Part shown: piece after piece, positions 20,000 through 28,075 of the stretch | Position numbering within the stretch: the stretch's first letter is position 1 | Layout: each line of letters starts with the position of its first letter | Assembly (NCBI GenBank): GCA_027314515.1 | Contig: DAHVAR010000094.1 | Coordinates: forward strand, 1 to 64,000 | DNA from: Actinomycetota bacterium | GTDB taxonomy: Bacteria; Actinomycetota; Actinomycetes; Streptosporangiales; Streptosporangiaceae | Length of the DNA: 64,000 bases | Direction: 5' to 3' | Notes under the pieces: generated by a model | The model's database searches: none | What the model was told of the DNA's origin: nothing | Seen by the model: only the letters and a program-made list of their open reading frames with translations | Program-made: the position numbers and the translations under genes

Positions 20000-20508
20000 G
20001 GCCTGACGTGCCCGTTCCCGGACTTACTCGCATCGATCACATCGGGTTCACCGTGCCCGATCTCCAGCAGGCGCGGCAGTTCCTGATCGATGTGCTCGGC
20101 TGCGAGTACATGTACTCGCTCGGCCCCTTCGTTCACGATGACGACTGGATGTCGCAGCACCTGAACGTCCATCCCCGCGCGGTCATGCAGCAGCTGCATT
20201 TCTTCCGCTGCGGCGGCCAGGCGATCTTCGAGGTGTTCCAGTACGCGGCACCCGACCAGCGCCAGGTCATGCCGCGCAACAGCGACTACGGCGGGCATCA
20301 CGTCGCCTTCTACGTCGACGACATGGACGCCGCCGTGGACTACCTGCGCGCGAAGGGCGTGCGGGTACTCGGCGATCCGACCGCGAGCAGCGGGCCGAGC
20401 GAAGGCCAGCGGTGGGTCTACTTCCTGGCCCCCTGGGGCATGCAGTTCGAGCTCGTGTCCTACCCGGGCGGGAAGGCGTACGACCGGCAGGAAACGGGCT
20501 CGGCCTAG
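19996..20508 (+). CDS. VOC family protein
   Basis: A 170-residue glyoxalase-fold protein: RIDHIGFTVPDLQQARQFLI at the N-terminus (histidine metal ligand), GGHHVAFYVDDMDAAVDYL in the second half and FLAPWGMQFELVSYPGGKAY near the end (glutamate ligand). The HIGFTVPDL...GGHHVAFYV pattern fits members that act as dioxygenases, lyases or epimerases. The GTG at 19996 overlaps the aldehyde dehydrogenase stop; GTG at 20008 is an alternative. The tight operon position suggests a catabolic step, reaction unknown. Confidence 0.85.
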   Translation: MRPDVPVPGLTRIDHIGFTVPDLQQARQFLIDVLGCEYMYSLGPFVHDDDWMSQHLNVHPRAVMQQLHFFRCGGQAIFEVFQYAAPDQRQVMPRNSDYGGHHVAFYVDDMDAAVDYLRAKGVRVLGDPTASSGPSEGQRWVYFLAPWGMQFELVSYPGGKAYDRQETGSA

Positions 20509-20549
20509 GCCGGCCGCTACCTCCGGCGACGGCAAGGTCAGGGAGCGCA

Positions 20550-22757
20550 ATGGAGCAGAACCAGCTGCAGATGTCCGCGCCATGGGTCGAGATCATCGCG
20601 ACCCGGCAGGACTGGGACGCGGCCGACCCGGACTTCCTGGTCGGCGCCTTCGCCCAGCTCATCCTGATCCGCGCGTTCGAGGAATACGTGCTGGAACTGG
20701 CCGCCGACGGCCTCATCCACGGCCCTGCCCACTCCAGCATCGGCCAGGAAGGCGGCGCGGTCGGCTCCGTGCTGGCACTGGCCGCCGGCGACACGGTGAA
20801 CGGCTCGCACCGGGGCCATCACCAGTTCCTGGCGAAGGCGCTTGCGTATGTGGCTCCGAAAGGCATCGACCCGACCCGGCCGTTTCCCGACGAGGTGCGG
20901 GCGGTGCTGCTGCGCAGCCTCGCCGAGGTCTGCGGGCTGGACCGTGGTTTCAGCCACGGCCGCGGCGGTTCGATGCACCTGCAGTGGCGGGAGGCCGGGG
21001 CGATCGGCACCAACGCCATCGTCGGCGGCGGGGTACCGCAGGCAGCCGGGTCGGCGTGGGCGCATAAGCACGCGGGCACTGACGCGGTCGCGGTCACCTA
21101 CTTCGGCGACGGCGCGATCAACATCGGCTCGACGCTGGAGACGCTGAACCTGGCGGCTGCCTGGAGCCTGCCGCTGTGCTTCTTCATCGAGAACAACCGG
21201 TACGCGGTGTCGACCACGGTGCAGGAGGCGACCGGCGAGCCGCGGCTGTCGGCGCGCGGTCCCGGCTTCGGCATCGCCAGCTGGAAAGTGGACGGCATGG
21301 ACGTCCTGGCGGTGCACCTGGCCATGCGGCAGGTCGTGGACCACCTTCGGGCCGGGAACGGCCCGGCCGTGCTGGAGGCGGATGTCTACCGTTACTTCCA
21401 CCAGAACGGCCCGTTTCCCGGCAGCGCCTTCAGGTACCGCACCAGGGAGGAGGAAGCCCGGTGGCGGGCACGCGACCCGATCAGCCAGATTGCCGGGCAT
21501 CTTGCGCGCCGCGGGATTCTCGCCGAGACGGCGGTGGAGGCCGCGCGGCAGCAGGCCGCCCGGTTGATGGCGGAGATCGGCTCGGTGCTGCTCGAGCCGG
21601 TGCCGGGAGGCAAGCCGGCCACCCGGCAGATCAAGGCTGCCGAGTGGCCGGATCCGGCGTTCGCCGACGTGGGCGTGCGCGGTGACCTGAGCGAGTTCGC
21701 GGATGCGCCGATCGCCGACCGGGCCGACTTCCGCGGGCCGACCGCGGAGATGACGTTCATCGATGCGGTTGCCGGGGTGATGGCACGCCGGATGAGCTGC
21801 GACGACCGTATCGTGATCATGGGCGAGGACATCCACCGGCTGAACGGCGGGACCAACGGCGCGACGAAGGGCCTGGCCCAGGCTCACCCCGACCGGGTGC
21901 TGGGCACGCCGATCAGCGAGAACGCGTTCGCCGGGCTGGCCGGGGGAGTGGCCCTGGACGGCCGGTTCATCCCGGTAGTCGAGTTCATGTACGCCGACTT
22001 CATGTGGGTCGCCGCCGACCAGCTTTTCAACCAGATCGCGAAGGCCCGGCACATGTACGGGGGACTCGGCGACGTCCCGCTCGTGCTGCGCAGCAAGGTC
22101 GCCATCGGCACCGGCTACGGGTCGCAGCATTCGATGGATCCGGCCGGGATTTTCGCCACCTCGCTGGGCTGGCGGATAGTGGCGCCATCGACGCCGTTCG
22201 ACTACATCGGGCTGATGAACAGCGCGCTGCGGTGCCGCGACCCGGTCGTGGTCCTGGAGCACGTAGACCTCTACCCGGTGTCCGGCGAGGTGCCGGACGG
22301 CGAGTGGGACTACTGCCTGCCGGTCGGCCGGGCCGCGGTGCGGCGCGCCGGATCGGAGCTCACGGTGCTGACCTACCTGGCGATGACGCAGCGGGTGCTG
22401 GACGCCGTGGCCGCGAGCGGCGGGTCTGGCGGAGGCGGGTCCGGCGGGGGTGGCGTGGACGCGGAGGTGATCGACTTGCGCTGGCTTGACCGTGCGAGCA
22501 TCGACTGGGACACGATCGGCGCGAGCATCAGGAAGACCAACCGCGTCCTGATCGCGGAGCAGGGCGCTCTCGGCACCTCGTACGGGGGCTGGCTGGCGGA
22601 CGAGATCCAGCGGCGGTTCTTCGACTGGCTCGACCACCCGGTGCAGCGGGTCACCGGCGGCGAGGCGTCACCCACGATCAGCAAGGTGCTCGAGCGTGCG
22701 GCTATCGCTCAGGTGAGCGACGTCGTCAGCGCGCTGATCGAGCTAGCGAAGGCCTGA
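20550..22757 (+). CDS. Fused E1 alpha/beta subunits of a thiamine-dependent 2-oxoacid or acetoin dehydrogenase
   Basis: The 735-residue protein carries E1 alpha (about 1-340) and E1 beta (about 400-735) in one chain. The alpha part shows the thiamine diphosphate motif FGDGAINIGSTLE... ENNRYAVST and the phosphorylation-loop-like region FSHGRGGSMHLQW. The beta part shows MTFIDAVAGVMARRM, IMGEDIHRLNGG and YADFMWVAADQLFNQIAK. A glycine-serine stretch (GGSGGGGSGGGG, about residues 624-635) sits inside the beta C-terminal domain. It forms the decarboxylating component of a complex with the E2 at 22760. No E3 is encoded in the window. AGGGAG precedes the ATG at 20550. Confidence 0.9.
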   Translation: MEQNQLQMSAPWVEIIATRQDWDAADPDFLVGAFAQLILIRAFEEYVLELAADGLIHGPAHSSIGQEGGAVGSVLALAAGDTVNGSHRGHHQFLAKALAYVAPKGIDPTRPFPDEVRAVLLRSLAEVCGLDRGFSHGRGGSMHLQWREAGAIGTNAIVGGGVPQAAGSAWAHKHAGTDAVAVTYFGDGAINIGSTLETLNLAAAWSLPLCFFIENNRYAVSTTVQEATGEPRLSARGPGFGIASWKVDGMDVLAVHLAMRQVVDHLRAGNGPAVLEADVYRYFHQNGPFPGSAFRYRTREEEARWRARDPISQIAGHLARRGILAETAVEAARQQAARLMAEIGSVLLEPVPGGKPATRQIKAAEWPDPAFADVGVRGDLSEFADAPIADRADFRGPTAEMTFIDAVAGVMARRMSCDDRIVIMGEDIHRLNGGTNGATKGLAQAHPDRVLGTPISENAFAGLAGGVALDGRFIPVVEFMYADFMWVAADQLFNQIAKARHMYGGLGDVPLVLRSKVAIGTGYGSQHSMDPAGIFATSLGWRIVAPSTPFDYIGLMNSALRCRDPVVVLEHVDLYPVSGEVPDGEWDYCLPVGRAAVRRAGSELTVLTYLAMTQRVLDAVAASGGSGGGGSGGGGVDAEVIDLRWLDRASIDWDTIGASIRKTNRVLIAEQGALGTSYGGWLADEIQRRFFDWLDHPVQRVTGGEASPTISKVLERAAIAQVSDVVSALIELAKA

Positions 22758-22759
22758 CG

Positions 22760-24214
22760 ATGGCGAGGCTGCTCCGCGTTCCCGCAATCTCCGCCGGGGC
22801 GAGCGAGGCGGTGCTGGCTACCTGGCCGCTGGCCGAGAACGTCCCGTATGCCGCCACCGACGTGATCGCCACCGTGGAGACCGAGAAGGCCGTCGTCGAC
22901 ATCGAGGCCGAGGAGGACGGCGTGATCCTGCGCCGGCTCGTCGGCGAGGGCGCGAACGTCGCGGTCGGCCAGCCCATCGCGCTGCTCGGCGCGCCGGGCG
23001 AGCCGGCCGGGGACATCGATGAAATGCTGCGCGCGCACGGAGTGGCGGCCGGGCCGCCGCCTGCGGCTCCGACCGCTCCGGCGGCTCCGGCCGCTCCCGC
23101 TGGCTCGCCCGTGTCATCCGCGCCTTCGGCGGGCTCGCCGGCGAGTGGTGCTGACCTGGTTCGCGCCGCACCGGCTGGCAACGGGCAGCCGCAGGGGCCA
23201 GGGCCGCACGACGCCGAGCAGGCCGGGGCACTGCAGGCCGGGGCACTGCGGGCCGGGGCGCAGCGGATCTTCGTCAGCCCGCTAGCCCGGCGGCTGGCCC
23301 GCGACAGCGCACTGGACCTGCGGGCGATCGCCGGCACCGGGCCGAATGGCCGCATCATGCGCCGTGACGTCGAGCAGGCAATGCGCGCCATCGGCCGGGC
23401 GCCGGCCGCGGCGACCGGCTGGCTGGCAGAGCCGGCGCTTCAGCCGTCGCCAGCCGTCACCACCGGAACCGCGGAGGGCGCGGCAGCCGGATGGCCGACC
23501 CCGGTGGCGCCGGCCGCCCCACCGGCGGCTGCGGGGCACACCGCCATCGCGCACAGCCGGGTTCGCCAGGCGATCGCCAGCCGGCTCACCGAGAGCAAGC
23601 GGACGGTCCCGCACTTCTACCTCAGCGGGAGCGCCAGGGCAGGCAAGCTGCTCCGGTTGCGAGCGGAACTCAACGACGGTACGAGCCCGGTCCGGGTCTC
23701 GGTGAATGATCTCGTCATCAAGGCAGTTGCCCGCGCGCATCAGCTTGTGCCCGCCATGAACGTGATCTGGACGCCCGATGCACTGCTGTCATATAGCTCA
23801 GTCGACGTCGGCGTGGCGGTCGCCAGCCCGCGCGGCCTGGTGACTCCGGTACTCCGCTCGGCCGAGCGGTACCCGATCTCCGCGCTGTCCGCCGCGGTTG
23901 CTGATCTGGTCGATCGGGCCGGAGCCGGCCGCCTCCAGCAGCGCGAACTCGAAGGCGGCACGACCTGTGTGACAAACCTCGGCATGTTCGGCGTCGAGGA
24001 GTTCAGCGCGATCATCAACCCGCCGCAATCGTCGATCATCGCCGTCGGCGCCATCCACGACGCCCCGGTGGTTAAGAAGGGGAAGCTGGGAGTCGGCGCG
24101 GTAATGCGGGTGACTCTATCTGTCGATCACCGGGCAGCGGACGGGACCACGGCAGCCGAGTGGATGAAGGCTTTCGTGGCGCTGATCGAGCATCCCGCGC
24201 AGATCCTGGCGTGA
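22760..24214 (+). CDS. Dihydrolipoamide acyltransferase (E2)
   Basis: A 484-residue E2. The N-terminal lipoyl domain carries the lipoylated Lys43 in VETEKAVVDIEAEE. An Ala/Pro linker follows, then the E3-binding domain (about 170-205; VSPLARRLARDSALDLRAIA, GPNGRIMRRDV), a second linker and the catalytic domain (about 255-484) with the active-site SVDHRAADGTTAAEWM. It starts two bases after the E1 stop. Together they would convert a 2-oxoacid or acetoin-like compound to an acyl-CoA, with E3 borrowed from elsewhere in the genome. This is the last gene of the operon. Confidence 0.92.
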   Translation: MARLLRVPAISAGASEAVLATWPLAENVPYAATDVIATVETEKAVVDIEAEEDGVILRRLVGEGANVAVGQPIALLGAPGEPAGDIDEMLRAHGVAAGPPPAAPTAPAAPAAPAGSPVSSAPSAGSPASGADLVRAAPAGNGQPQGPGPHDAEQAGALQAGALRAGAQRIFVSPLARRLARDSALDLRAIAGTGPNGRIMRRDVEQAMRAIGRAPAAATGWLAEPALQPSPAVTTGTAEGAAAGWPTPVAPAAPPAAAGHTAIAHSRVRQAIASRLTESKRTVPHFYLSGSARAGKLLRLRAELNDGTSPVRVSVNDLVIKAVARAHQLVPAMNVIWTPDALLSYSSVDVGVAVASPRGLVTPVLRSAERYPISALSAAVADLVDRAGAGRLQQRELEGGTTCVTNLGMFGVEEFSAIINPPQSSIIAVGAIHDAPVVKKGKLGVGAVMRVTLSVDHRAADGTTAAEWMKAFVALIEHPAQILA

Positions 24215-25745: not shown

Positions 25746-26636
25746 TCAGATCGATTTGCCGGCCGCGGCGACGCCGGCTGACGTGCAAACGCTGGCCGGC
25801 TGATTGCCGGTAAGCGTGCAGATCGCGGCGGTGATCATGTTGGCTGCCCCGTCGATGTCGCGGCCGATCGCGCTGGCCGGGTCGTGCATCGCCGCGGCGA
25901 CTTGCGCCCAGGTCAGCCCGGCCAGGGCGGACGGCACGTACTGAGCGCTCGGGACGAGGTAGCGGTTGCCGATGTCGACGAACGGAATCGAGCCGCCCGA
26001 GTACCGGGCGAACAGCGCTTGCTCTTGCGGCGTGGGGTGCTGGAGGTAGACGTGCGCGAAGGGGGTGGCCGGGTCGGCCTTTTCCCCGTACCACTCGACC
26101 GGCACGAACCTGAGGTACTTGCTGGCGTAGCCGGCGTCGGCGAAGGTCAGCGTGGGCGTGCTCGGGTAGACGTCGGCAGGCGAGGAGTGGATGAAGCGCA
26201 GTCCGGTAAGCGTGCCGAACCGGCTCACGGCGGCTGCGATCGCCCACCGTTCCGCGGCGCAGTACGGGCAGAACTCGCCGCCCATGTACAGCAGTTCCGG
26301 CGTCCGGCCGGCCATGAGCTCAGGTTGCCCGCTGATCGATTTCAGGCCCGTCGCGGTGCCTGCGCCTACCCGGTTGAACGTGGCAGCCGGTGCGGTCGTG
26401 ATCTCGCGCGCGACCGCCGGGTCGGCTGCCGCCGCACCCGGCCCTGCGGGTGCCGGGGACCTGCCGAGGCTGACCAGCACGACCACGATCACCAGCAGCA
26501 CCACGACGGCGACGCTGCCGCCTGCGATCGCGATTCTCCGGCGCGTCTCGGCGCGCCTTGCCGCCGCCTGCTGGGCGGCGATCTTCTGGCGGGCCCGCTG
26601 CGCCGCAAGCCGTTCAGCCTTACCCATGGTGCCCAT
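25746..26636 (-). CDS. DUF929-family membrane-anchored thioredoxin-like protein
   Basis: A 296-residue protein: a basic Gln/Ala/Arg-rich cytoplasmic N-terminus (1-36), one membrane helix (about 37-58), and an extracytoplasmic domain with MGGEFCPYCAAERWAIAAAV, the CxxC motif of the DUF929 family. CPYC suggests a thiol-disulfide role outside the membrane. ATGs at 26636 and 26627 are both possible starts. A 26-bp perfect palindrome ends 41 bp upstream-to-16 bp upstream of the start, between this gene and blaI, so it is probably under BlaI control. Confidence 0.82.
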   Translation of the reverse strand: MGTMGKAERLAAQRARQKIAAQQAAARRAETRRRIAIAGGSVAVVVLLVIVVVLVSLGRSPAPAGPGAAAADPAVAREITTAPAATFNRVGAGTATGLKSISGQPELMAGRTPELLYMGGEFCPYCAAERWAIAAAVSRFGTLTGLRFIHSSPADVYPSTPTLTFADAGYASKYLRFVPVEWYGEKADPATPFAHVYLQHPTPQEQALFARYSGGSIPFVDIGNRYLVPSAQYVPSALAGLTWAQVAAAMHDPASAIGRDIDGAANMITAAICTLTGNQPASVCTSAGVAAAGKSI

Positions 26637-26651
26637 CCCGCCGGTCGTTAT

Positions 26652-26690
26652 CTACGGTCTACGTACGTAGACCGTAGCATTCGTTAGACT
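26652..26690. promoter_or_regulatory. BlaI-type operator (26-bp perfect palindrome) and blaI -10 box
   Basis: Positions 26652-26677 are a perfect palindrome with half-site CTACGGTCTACGT; the core TACGTACGTA has the TAC...GTA form of BlaI/MecI operators. TAGACT (26685-26690) is a -10 candidate for blaI and places the palindrome over the -35 region. The DUF929 gene starts 16 bp away on the other side, so one site could control both directions. Confidence 0.7.
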
Positions 26691-26750
26691 GCTCCCGGTA
26701 GCTGTCAGCGGCCCGCAGGTAACGGCCCGGCGGCGCAGCGGGGAGGCAAC

Positions 26751-27119
26751 GTGCGCGGATTCGGTGACCTGGAGTCAGTGGTCATGCACATGGTGTGGGA
26801 CTCCTGCGGGCCGGTGACCGTCAGGGAACTGTTCGATCAGCTCAGCCGCGATCGCTCGATCGCGTACACGACGGTCATGAGCACTATGGACAACCTGCAC
26901 CGCAAGGGCTGGCTCGCGCGGGTCAAGGACGGCAAGGCCTACCAGTACACCGCGACTGCGAGTCGCGAGGAGTACAGCGCGCGGCTGATGCGAGAAGCGC
27001 TGGCTGGCGGAGGGGACACCGAGGCAGTGCTCACGCACTTCGTCGCGCAGATCGGCGGAGCGGAGTCGCAAGTGCTGCGCACGGTGGTGCAGCGGCTATC
27101 CGGCCGGCGGCCGGAATGA
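26751..27119 (+). CDS. BlaI/MecI/CopY-family repressor
   Basis: A 122-residue winged-helix repressor: LESVVMHMVWDSCGPVTVRELFDQL, then YTTVMSTMDNLHRKGWLARVKDGKAYQYTA, the recognition helix and wing of BlaI/MecI proteins, and a C-terminal dimerisation part. The GTG at 26751 has GGGAGG just upstream. Its stop overlaps the start of the M56 metallopeptidase (ATGA). In the classical system a BlaR-type membrane protease triggers loss of the repressor. Confidence 0.92.
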   Translation: MRGFGDLESVVMHMVWDSCGPVTVRELFDQLSRDRSIAYTTVMSTMDNLHRKGWLARVKDGKAYQYTATASREEYSARLMREALAGGGDTEAVLTHFVAQIGGAESQVLRTVVQRLSGRRPE

Positions 27120-28075
27120 CCCCGGCGCTGCTGATCTGCGCGTATGCGCTGGCAGTCGGGTGGTTCCTGCCGGAGTTGCTGGCGGCGCTGACCGCCCCCG
27201 GCATGAGCGCGCGGCTGGGGCTGACGGCCTGGCTGACCTCGATGGCCTGCGTGCTGGCGTGCTTCGCTGTCGCGCTGCAGTACCTGCTCGGCGCGGCAGT
27301 CACGGGCTGGCCGCTGCTGGCTCAGGCGATCTGCCGGTCGGCTACCGGGCACGCCTGCCCGCCGCTGGTATACCGGGGCGCGATCCTCGAGATCCCGCTC
27401 AGCGCCGCCGCGCTCGGCGGGGCGCTGGCCGCGACGGTGCTGGCCTGGCAGTACGGCCGCCGGCTGCAGCGGTCCCGGCGGCGGACGCGCGCCCACGCCG
27501 AGTCAGCCCGGATCACCGGCCGCGCGCTGACGGCGGCCAGCGGCACGGTAGTTCTCGACGTCCAGCAGCCGGCCGCCTACTGCGTGCCGGGCCGCCCGCC
27601 CGCCATCGTGCTTACCGCCGGCGCCCTTGCCGTACTCGAGCCCGCGCAGCTCACCGCGGTGATCGCGCACGAGAAGGCGCACCTGGCCGGCGGCCATCAC
27701 AGGCTCGTCGCGCTCACCCGCGGGCTGGCCGCAATCCTTCCGCGGGTGCCGCTGTTCACGCGCGGCGCCGCAGAGGTGGAGCGGCTTGCCGAGATGCGCG
27801 CCGACGACCGCGCGGCGCGTGACTTTGGCCGGCCGGTCCTCGTCACAGCGCTGCTGGCCATGGGCACCGGCACGGCAATTCCCGTTCTCGCGCTGGCGGC
27901 AACCGCCCAGAACGTGACAGCCCGCGTGCATCGCTTGCTCGCCCCCCCGCCGCGCGCCCGGCACATCGGCAACGGACTGGCTCTCGTCACCGTGACGCTG
28001 CTCGTCGCGGCGGGGTCGGCGCTGATCGCCCGGTTTGCCGGCCCGCTGGCCGCCCACGCCTTGGCGGTGCCGTGA
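27116..28075 (+). CDS. M56-family membrane metallopeptidase (BlaR-like, no penicillin sensor)
   Basis: A 319-residue membrane protein with hydrophobic segments near residues 3-22, 35-58, 87-105 and 280-305. The zinc motif is HEKAH in LTAVIAHEKAHLAGGHHRLV, with a downstream acidic ligand in RLAEMRADDRAA. It ends after the last helix and has no penicillin-binding sensor domain, as in many actinobacterial M56 proteins. It is coupled to blaI by a 4-bp overlap and is probably the protease that inactivates the repressor or a partner. Confidence 0.9.
   Translation: MTPALLICAYALAVGWFLPELLAALTAPGMSARLGLTAWLTSMACVLACFAVALQYLLGAAVTGWPLLAQAICRSATGHACPPLVYRGAILEIPLSAAALGGALAATVLAWQYGRRLQRSRRRTRAHAESARITGRALTAASGTVVLDVQQPAAYCVPGRPPAIVLTAGALAVLEPAQLTAVIAHEKAHLAGGHHRLVALTRGLAAILPRVPLFTRGAAEVERLAEMRADDRAARDFGRPVLVTALLAMGTGTAIPVLALAATAQNVTARVHRLLAPPPRARHIGNGLALVTVTLLVAAGSALIARFAGPLAAHALAVP

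Follow-up and report, generated by a model that had tools for sequence, protein, structure and literature searches.

A conserved palindrome between a BlaI-protease gene pair and a divergent DUF929 gene, a predicted operator with exchangeable envelope targets in actinobacteria

A 26-bp perfect palindrome located between a blaI-protease gene pair and a divergently transcribed DUF929 gene is very probably the operator of this BlaI. We examined it in a 64,000-nucleotide stretch of an actinobacterial contig (the window) and at related loci, whose comparison points to a BlaI-protease module whose envelope targets can be exchanged. The operator and its target are well supported by comparison among genomes, while the signal is something we infer. 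We consider it rather probable that the full explanation holds, with a BlaI operator, an anti-repressor protease, a DsbA-like DUF929 protein and an envelope thiol or metal signal. The features of the locus are as follows.

25746..26636, minus strand: DUF929 protein (PF06053, 6.7e-22, 78.6 bits vs. a cut-off of 24.6)
26652..26677, no strand: 26-bp perfect palindrome, predicted BlaI operator for both divergent promoters (exact, unique, conserved, with symmetric changes)
26685..26690, plus strand: TAGACT, putative -10-like hexamer of blaI, read from the sequence, with similar hexamers 3' of the operator in most orthologous loci
26751..27119, plus strand: BlaI/Penicillinase_R repressor, 122 aa, GTG start (PF03965, 1.2e-24)
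27116..28075, plus strand: membrane zinc protease of the BlaR1 type without a penicillin sensor, 319 aa (HEKAH at 185-189, E226, C73/C81)

The palindrome, CTACGGTCTACGTACGTAGACCGTAG, is exact at 26652-26677, as the original prediction had described it, and none of the other perfect palindromes in the 64-kb window is as long; Markov simulations at the window's composition gave an expectation of about 0.02 or fewer perfect 26-bp palindromes per 64 kb. A genome scan had been proposed, and it bore out the uniqueness of the site, with the 16-bp core occurring once in the 5.86-Mb assembly when up to two mismatches were allowed. In its centre, TACGTACGTA, the palindrome keeps the TAC-N4-GTA spacing of the BlaI/MecI/CopY family operator TACANNTGTA (PMC7253601), but the inner positions are G/C where that operator has A/T. 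The same genome contains two other blaI genes (on contigs C123 and C266), neither of which has such an operator in its upstream 200 bases. The palindrome, previously described as ending 16 bp from the DUF929 start, is separated from the ATG at 26636 by 15 bp; judged by alignment with relatives, the true start is probably Met4 (26627), 24 bp away. Overlap with the blaI -35 region, also predicted, is only inferred: if TAGACT at 26685-26690 serves as the -10 hexamer, the -35 would fall inside the palindrome, but a sigma-70 scan returned no promoter.

A BlaI relative was present in all 297 genomes of the order, and 12 genomes, the window's own (G000) among them, yielded an orthologue of the window BlaI (66-100% identity); the named relatives among the matches are uncultured Actinomycetes/Streptosporangiaceae metagenome-assembled genomes. 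The operator is present at the blaI promoter in all 12 orthologous loci, including the other four that are linked to DUF929, so that the conservation expected by the original prediction was indeed found. We then scanned seven whole genomes with a degenerate operator pattern, allowing up to three mismatches and using the reversed pattern as a control. Each of the six orthologue-bearing genomes contained exactly one site, always at the blaI promoter, while G305, which has no blaI orthologue, contained none, and the reversed pattern gave no matches in the genomes scanned. A larger regulon was sought at this threshold in the seven genomes, and no sites beyond the blaI promoters appeared. The operators of G000 and G109 share CTACGGTCTACGTACGTAGACCGTAG, and those of G307 and G342 share CTACTATCTACGTACGTAGATAGTAG; both are perfect palindromes, and they differ at two positions, each altered on both arms (GG..CC vs. 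TA..TA). Such symmetric conservation would be expected of a site bound by a dimeric repressor. Together, conservation in 12 of 12 loci, a single site in each of the six genomes and symmetric reshaping argue that the palindrome is very probably the operator of this BlaI. Overlapping half-site repeats extend the operator in G289, G340, G341, G298, G325 and G310, and the G307 locus has an additional shorter dyad.

The original prediction named DUF929 as the divergent target, which holds for five of the 12 loci (G000, G109, G271, G310 and G307). At five others (G289, G340, G341, G342 and G298) its place is taken by a gene for an unrelated extracytoplasmic protein with one transmembrane (TM) segment, and the remaining two (G229 and G325) lack a divergent target. 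An obligate DUF929 partnership was rejected because divergent DUF929 is missing from seven of the 12 loci, and the distribution suggests instead a BlaI-protease module whose targets are exchangeable. In the DUF929 tree, the copies of G000, G109, G271 and G310 group with those of G305 and G306, and the G307 copy falls in another well-supported branch, from which it appears that DUF929 came to lie at the operator, or was swapped in under it, more than once. The DUF929 orthologue of G305 (64%) has no blaI in its vicinity. The alternative target carries two motifs, HxHxH and WLHTH..H, and has two Cys residues that are invariant; it matched no Pfam family above cut-off, and a PDB profile search returned no match. 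Members of its family (L047:628-1416, L126, L127, L128 and L129) also share the motif CFYWLHTHAADG(I/V)xHIESP.

The persistence of the operator and blaI without DUF929 (G229, G325), or with a different neighbor, is what would be expected if the site served only to autoregulate the blaI-protease operon, with an incidental divergent gene and the real regulated genes elsewhere. Where a target exists, however, the site mostly lies a few tens of bases from the divergent start codon and must therefore overlap the divergent promoter. Genes from two branches of the DUF929 tree and from one unrelated family, each encoding a one-TM extracytoplasmic protein, have been placed there, and no second site with up to three mismatches was found in six genomes. 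We regard pure autoregulation as fairly unlikely.

The window BlaI has a Penicillinase_R winged-helix domain (PF03965, 1.2e-24, 87.3 bits vs. a cut-off of 22.6). The nearest solved structure is 2g9w (2.1e-20), whose record is titled "conserved hypothetical protein" and which we take to be BlaI (Rv1846c) of Mycobacterium tuberculosis, like the window protein an actinobacterial BlaI. In the accessible portions of two reports, the targets given for mycobacterial BlaI are beta-lactamase, cell-division and ATP-synthase-linked genes, and DUF929 is not among them (PMC8265638, PMC12565901). The CopY/CopR copper repressors belong to the same DNA-binding family and have a similar operator architecture (consensus RNYKACANNYGTMRNY, PMC7253601). 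Unlike them, the window BlaI lacks C-terminal CXC motifs, is partnered by a membrane protease and has no copper exporter nearby. The idea that BlaI itself senses metal was abandoned because the protein proved to lack the CXC copper motif; its only Cys, C19, is not conserved. F97 of the window BlaI aligns with the Phe at P1' of the Staphylococcus aureus BlaI cleavage site (PMC9834060), a match that is no more than suggestive of cleavage by the protease.

The protease gene overlaps the end of blaI by 4 bp, with its ATG over the blaI stop codon. Its product had been predicted to be an M56 protease, an assignment that needed correction, although the partner and the layout are of the BlaR1 type: the best Pfam match is Peptidase_M48 (1.2e-8, 35.4 bits vs. 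a cut-off of 20.3), and Peptidase_M56 scores below its cut-off of 31 (0.0012, 18.5 bits). The HExxH...E signature is intact: 11 orthologues all share H185, E186, H189 and E226, and hydrophobic segments flank it on both sides. A PDB profile search with the protease gave no match. At one locus, in G342 (C110, L114), blaI has a perfect operator yet no protease gene 3' of it within the downstream stretch covered.

The BlaI-BlaR1 and MecI-MecR1 systems of S. aureus and Bacillus licheniformis likewise combine a Penicillinase_R repressor with a membrane HExxH protease and a dyad operator, core TAC-N4-GTA, between divergent genes. This shared repressor family and gene order, together with the influence of mycobacterial BlaI on beta-lactam efficacy (as the title of PMC12565901 has it), would fit an ordinary BlaR1-type response to beta-lactams or cell-wall damage. 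The window protease differs, however, in the very part that would detect a beta-lactam, since the 319-aa protein stops after its last hydrophobic stretch and has no C-terminal penicillin-binding sensor and no such Pfam domain, in agreement with the original prediction. It also differs in falling under the M56 cut-off and in carrying a Cys pair in a predicted extracytoplasmic loop. Nor is the target a beta-lactamase or penicillin-binding protein (PBP), neither of which was recognised beside blaI in the loci whose neighbors were examined; it is DUF929 or another one-TM extracytoplasmic protein. A beta-lactam or cell-wall response is thus quite improbable.

The Cys pair consists of C73 and C81, both invariant in all 11 members of the protease clade. 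Both are located between the predicted TM2 and TM3, in a segment corresponding to loop EL1 of BlaR1, which has been implicated in signalling (PMC9834060). The second Cys was found in none of 24 proteases compared outside the clade, and most of the other actinobacterial relatives compared retain the first Cys alone. A lone extracytoplasmic-loop Cys is likewise conserved in most of the actinobacterial BlaI-linked proteases compared (L145-L153, L048-L072). The AlphaFold model of the protease is unusable (pLDDT 44), so the proximity of C73 and C81 and the topology of the loop rest on homology. Because the pair is kept regardless of the divergent target, it would be part of how the circuit senses its signal and does not point to DUF929 alone.

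The window DUF929 protein has a basic N-terminus, one TM helix and a predicted extracytoplasmic thioredoxin-like domain, in which a CPYC motif and a cis-Pro-like SIPF are joined by another Cys pair towards the C-terminus. C120-P-x-C123 and P215, the putative cis-Pro, are invariant in 12 DUF929 sequences; members from actinobacteria and Ktedonobacteria alike keep the CPxC, the cis-Pro-like Pro and the second Cys pair without exception. The family has been assigned to the thioredoxin clan (PMC3091736). With a structural model at pLDDT 81, DsbA headed the Foldseek list, at a best E of only 0.16, and the top rows in VIA-align were thioredoxin-like with modest Z scores of 6-6.7; TlpA/Sco-type copper-insertion proteins were also among the fold matches. 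DUF929 is a probable DsbA-like thiol oxidoreductase that would make or shuffle disulfide bonds outside the cell.

The genomic neighborhood of the family suggests what such an enzyme would work with. VKOR genes lie beside at least 27 of 42 related DUF929 loci, a lower bound because flanks of about 1.5 kb were considered. Since VKOR adjoins most DUF929 genes of the family, these proteins may be DsbA-like partners of VKOR. The window genome itself contains a DUF929-VKOR-DUF929 cluster on contig C261 (L137:8210-10526; VKOR, PF07884, 1e-26), and such a cluster is also present in G109 (C243, L139). None of the five BlaI-linked DUF929 copies, the window copy included, has VKOR within these flanks, and the simplest reading of these stand-alone copies is that they are inducible spares with a role of their own. 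A related arrangement is CutRS of Streptomyces, likewise an actinobacterial envelope regulator, which controls VKOR and hence the disulfide-forming machinery (PMC10433416); in contrast to the protease-repressor pair described here, it is a two-component kinase and response regulator. The envelope redox role put forward in the original prediction is strengthened by the VKOR linkage and the clade-specific Cys pair, whereas its suggestion of respiratory stress found no support.

We propose that a BlaI dimer bound to the palindrome would repress in both directions, shutting off the operon that encodes BlaI and the protease as well as DUF929 on the other side. The protease, sited in the membrane, would act as the anti-repressor, converting an extracytoplasmic signal into BlaI proteolysis as BlaR1 does: the loop with the Cys pair, equivalent to EL1, would read the signal and activate the cytosolic protease domain. 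Cleavage of BlaI would then induce both the blaI-protease operon and DUF929, a putative membrane-anchored DsbA-like thiol oxidoreductase and a stand-alone paralogue of the VKOR-adjacent copies. The signal would most likely be the thiol/disulfide state of the envelope, or its thiophilic-metal state. In its most specific form, in which a disulfide in the protease loop reads envelope redox, BlaI is destroyed and a DsbA-like DUF929 is induced within a system of exchangeable envelope targets, we offer the proposal tentatively, as a possible account. Copper or other thiophilic metals could instead be what the circuit senses, with envelope proteins for metal handling or repair of metal damage as the targets. 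The invariant HxHxH, WLHTH..H and Cys residues of the alternative target suggest that it binds metal, the repressor family includes CopY, a metal could be bound by the Cys pair, and the TlpA/Sco-type fold matches of DUF929 fit such a role. The missing CXC motif and copper exporter, and a protease loop that has no conserved His or Met beyond its Cys pair, speak against it, and we consider metal sensing a doubtful candidate.

The window contains other features near this locus and further away. A baeRF_family10 protein (PF18854, 28264-29415), weakly similar to mycobacterial ribosome hibernation factors, adjoins the protease gene. An 18-bp perfect palindrome, GCGAGTACATGTACTCGC, at 20102-20119 lies about 300 bp 5' of a 781-aa ORF (20412-22757), which is followed by an ORF at 22760, and is possibly the operator of another regulator. 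A 20-bp perfect palindrome, GCTAGCCGCGCGCGGCTAGC, is found at 1225-1244. PADLOC returned marginal matches only.

Neither the repressor family nor the type of operator is new, and the principle of pairing a repressor with a protease is known as well. In the literature searched, we found nothing on DUF929 together with BlaI, no DUF929-type target for such a pair and no case of a single conserved operator under which the envelope targets are exchanged; nor did we find loss of the penicillin sensor combined with a clade-specific Cys pair in the loop, or redox sensing by an M56 protease. BlaI-protease pairs are common in bacteria. This clade offers a single defined operator, a target with likely disulfide chemistry and a two-Cys candidate sensor that is open to point mutation. 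DUF929, a family rarely named in the literature searched, gains a functional hypothesis. If the proposal is true, the locus would represent a circuit by which actinobacteria sense redox state through proteolysis and so control the formation of disulfides outside the cytoplasm.
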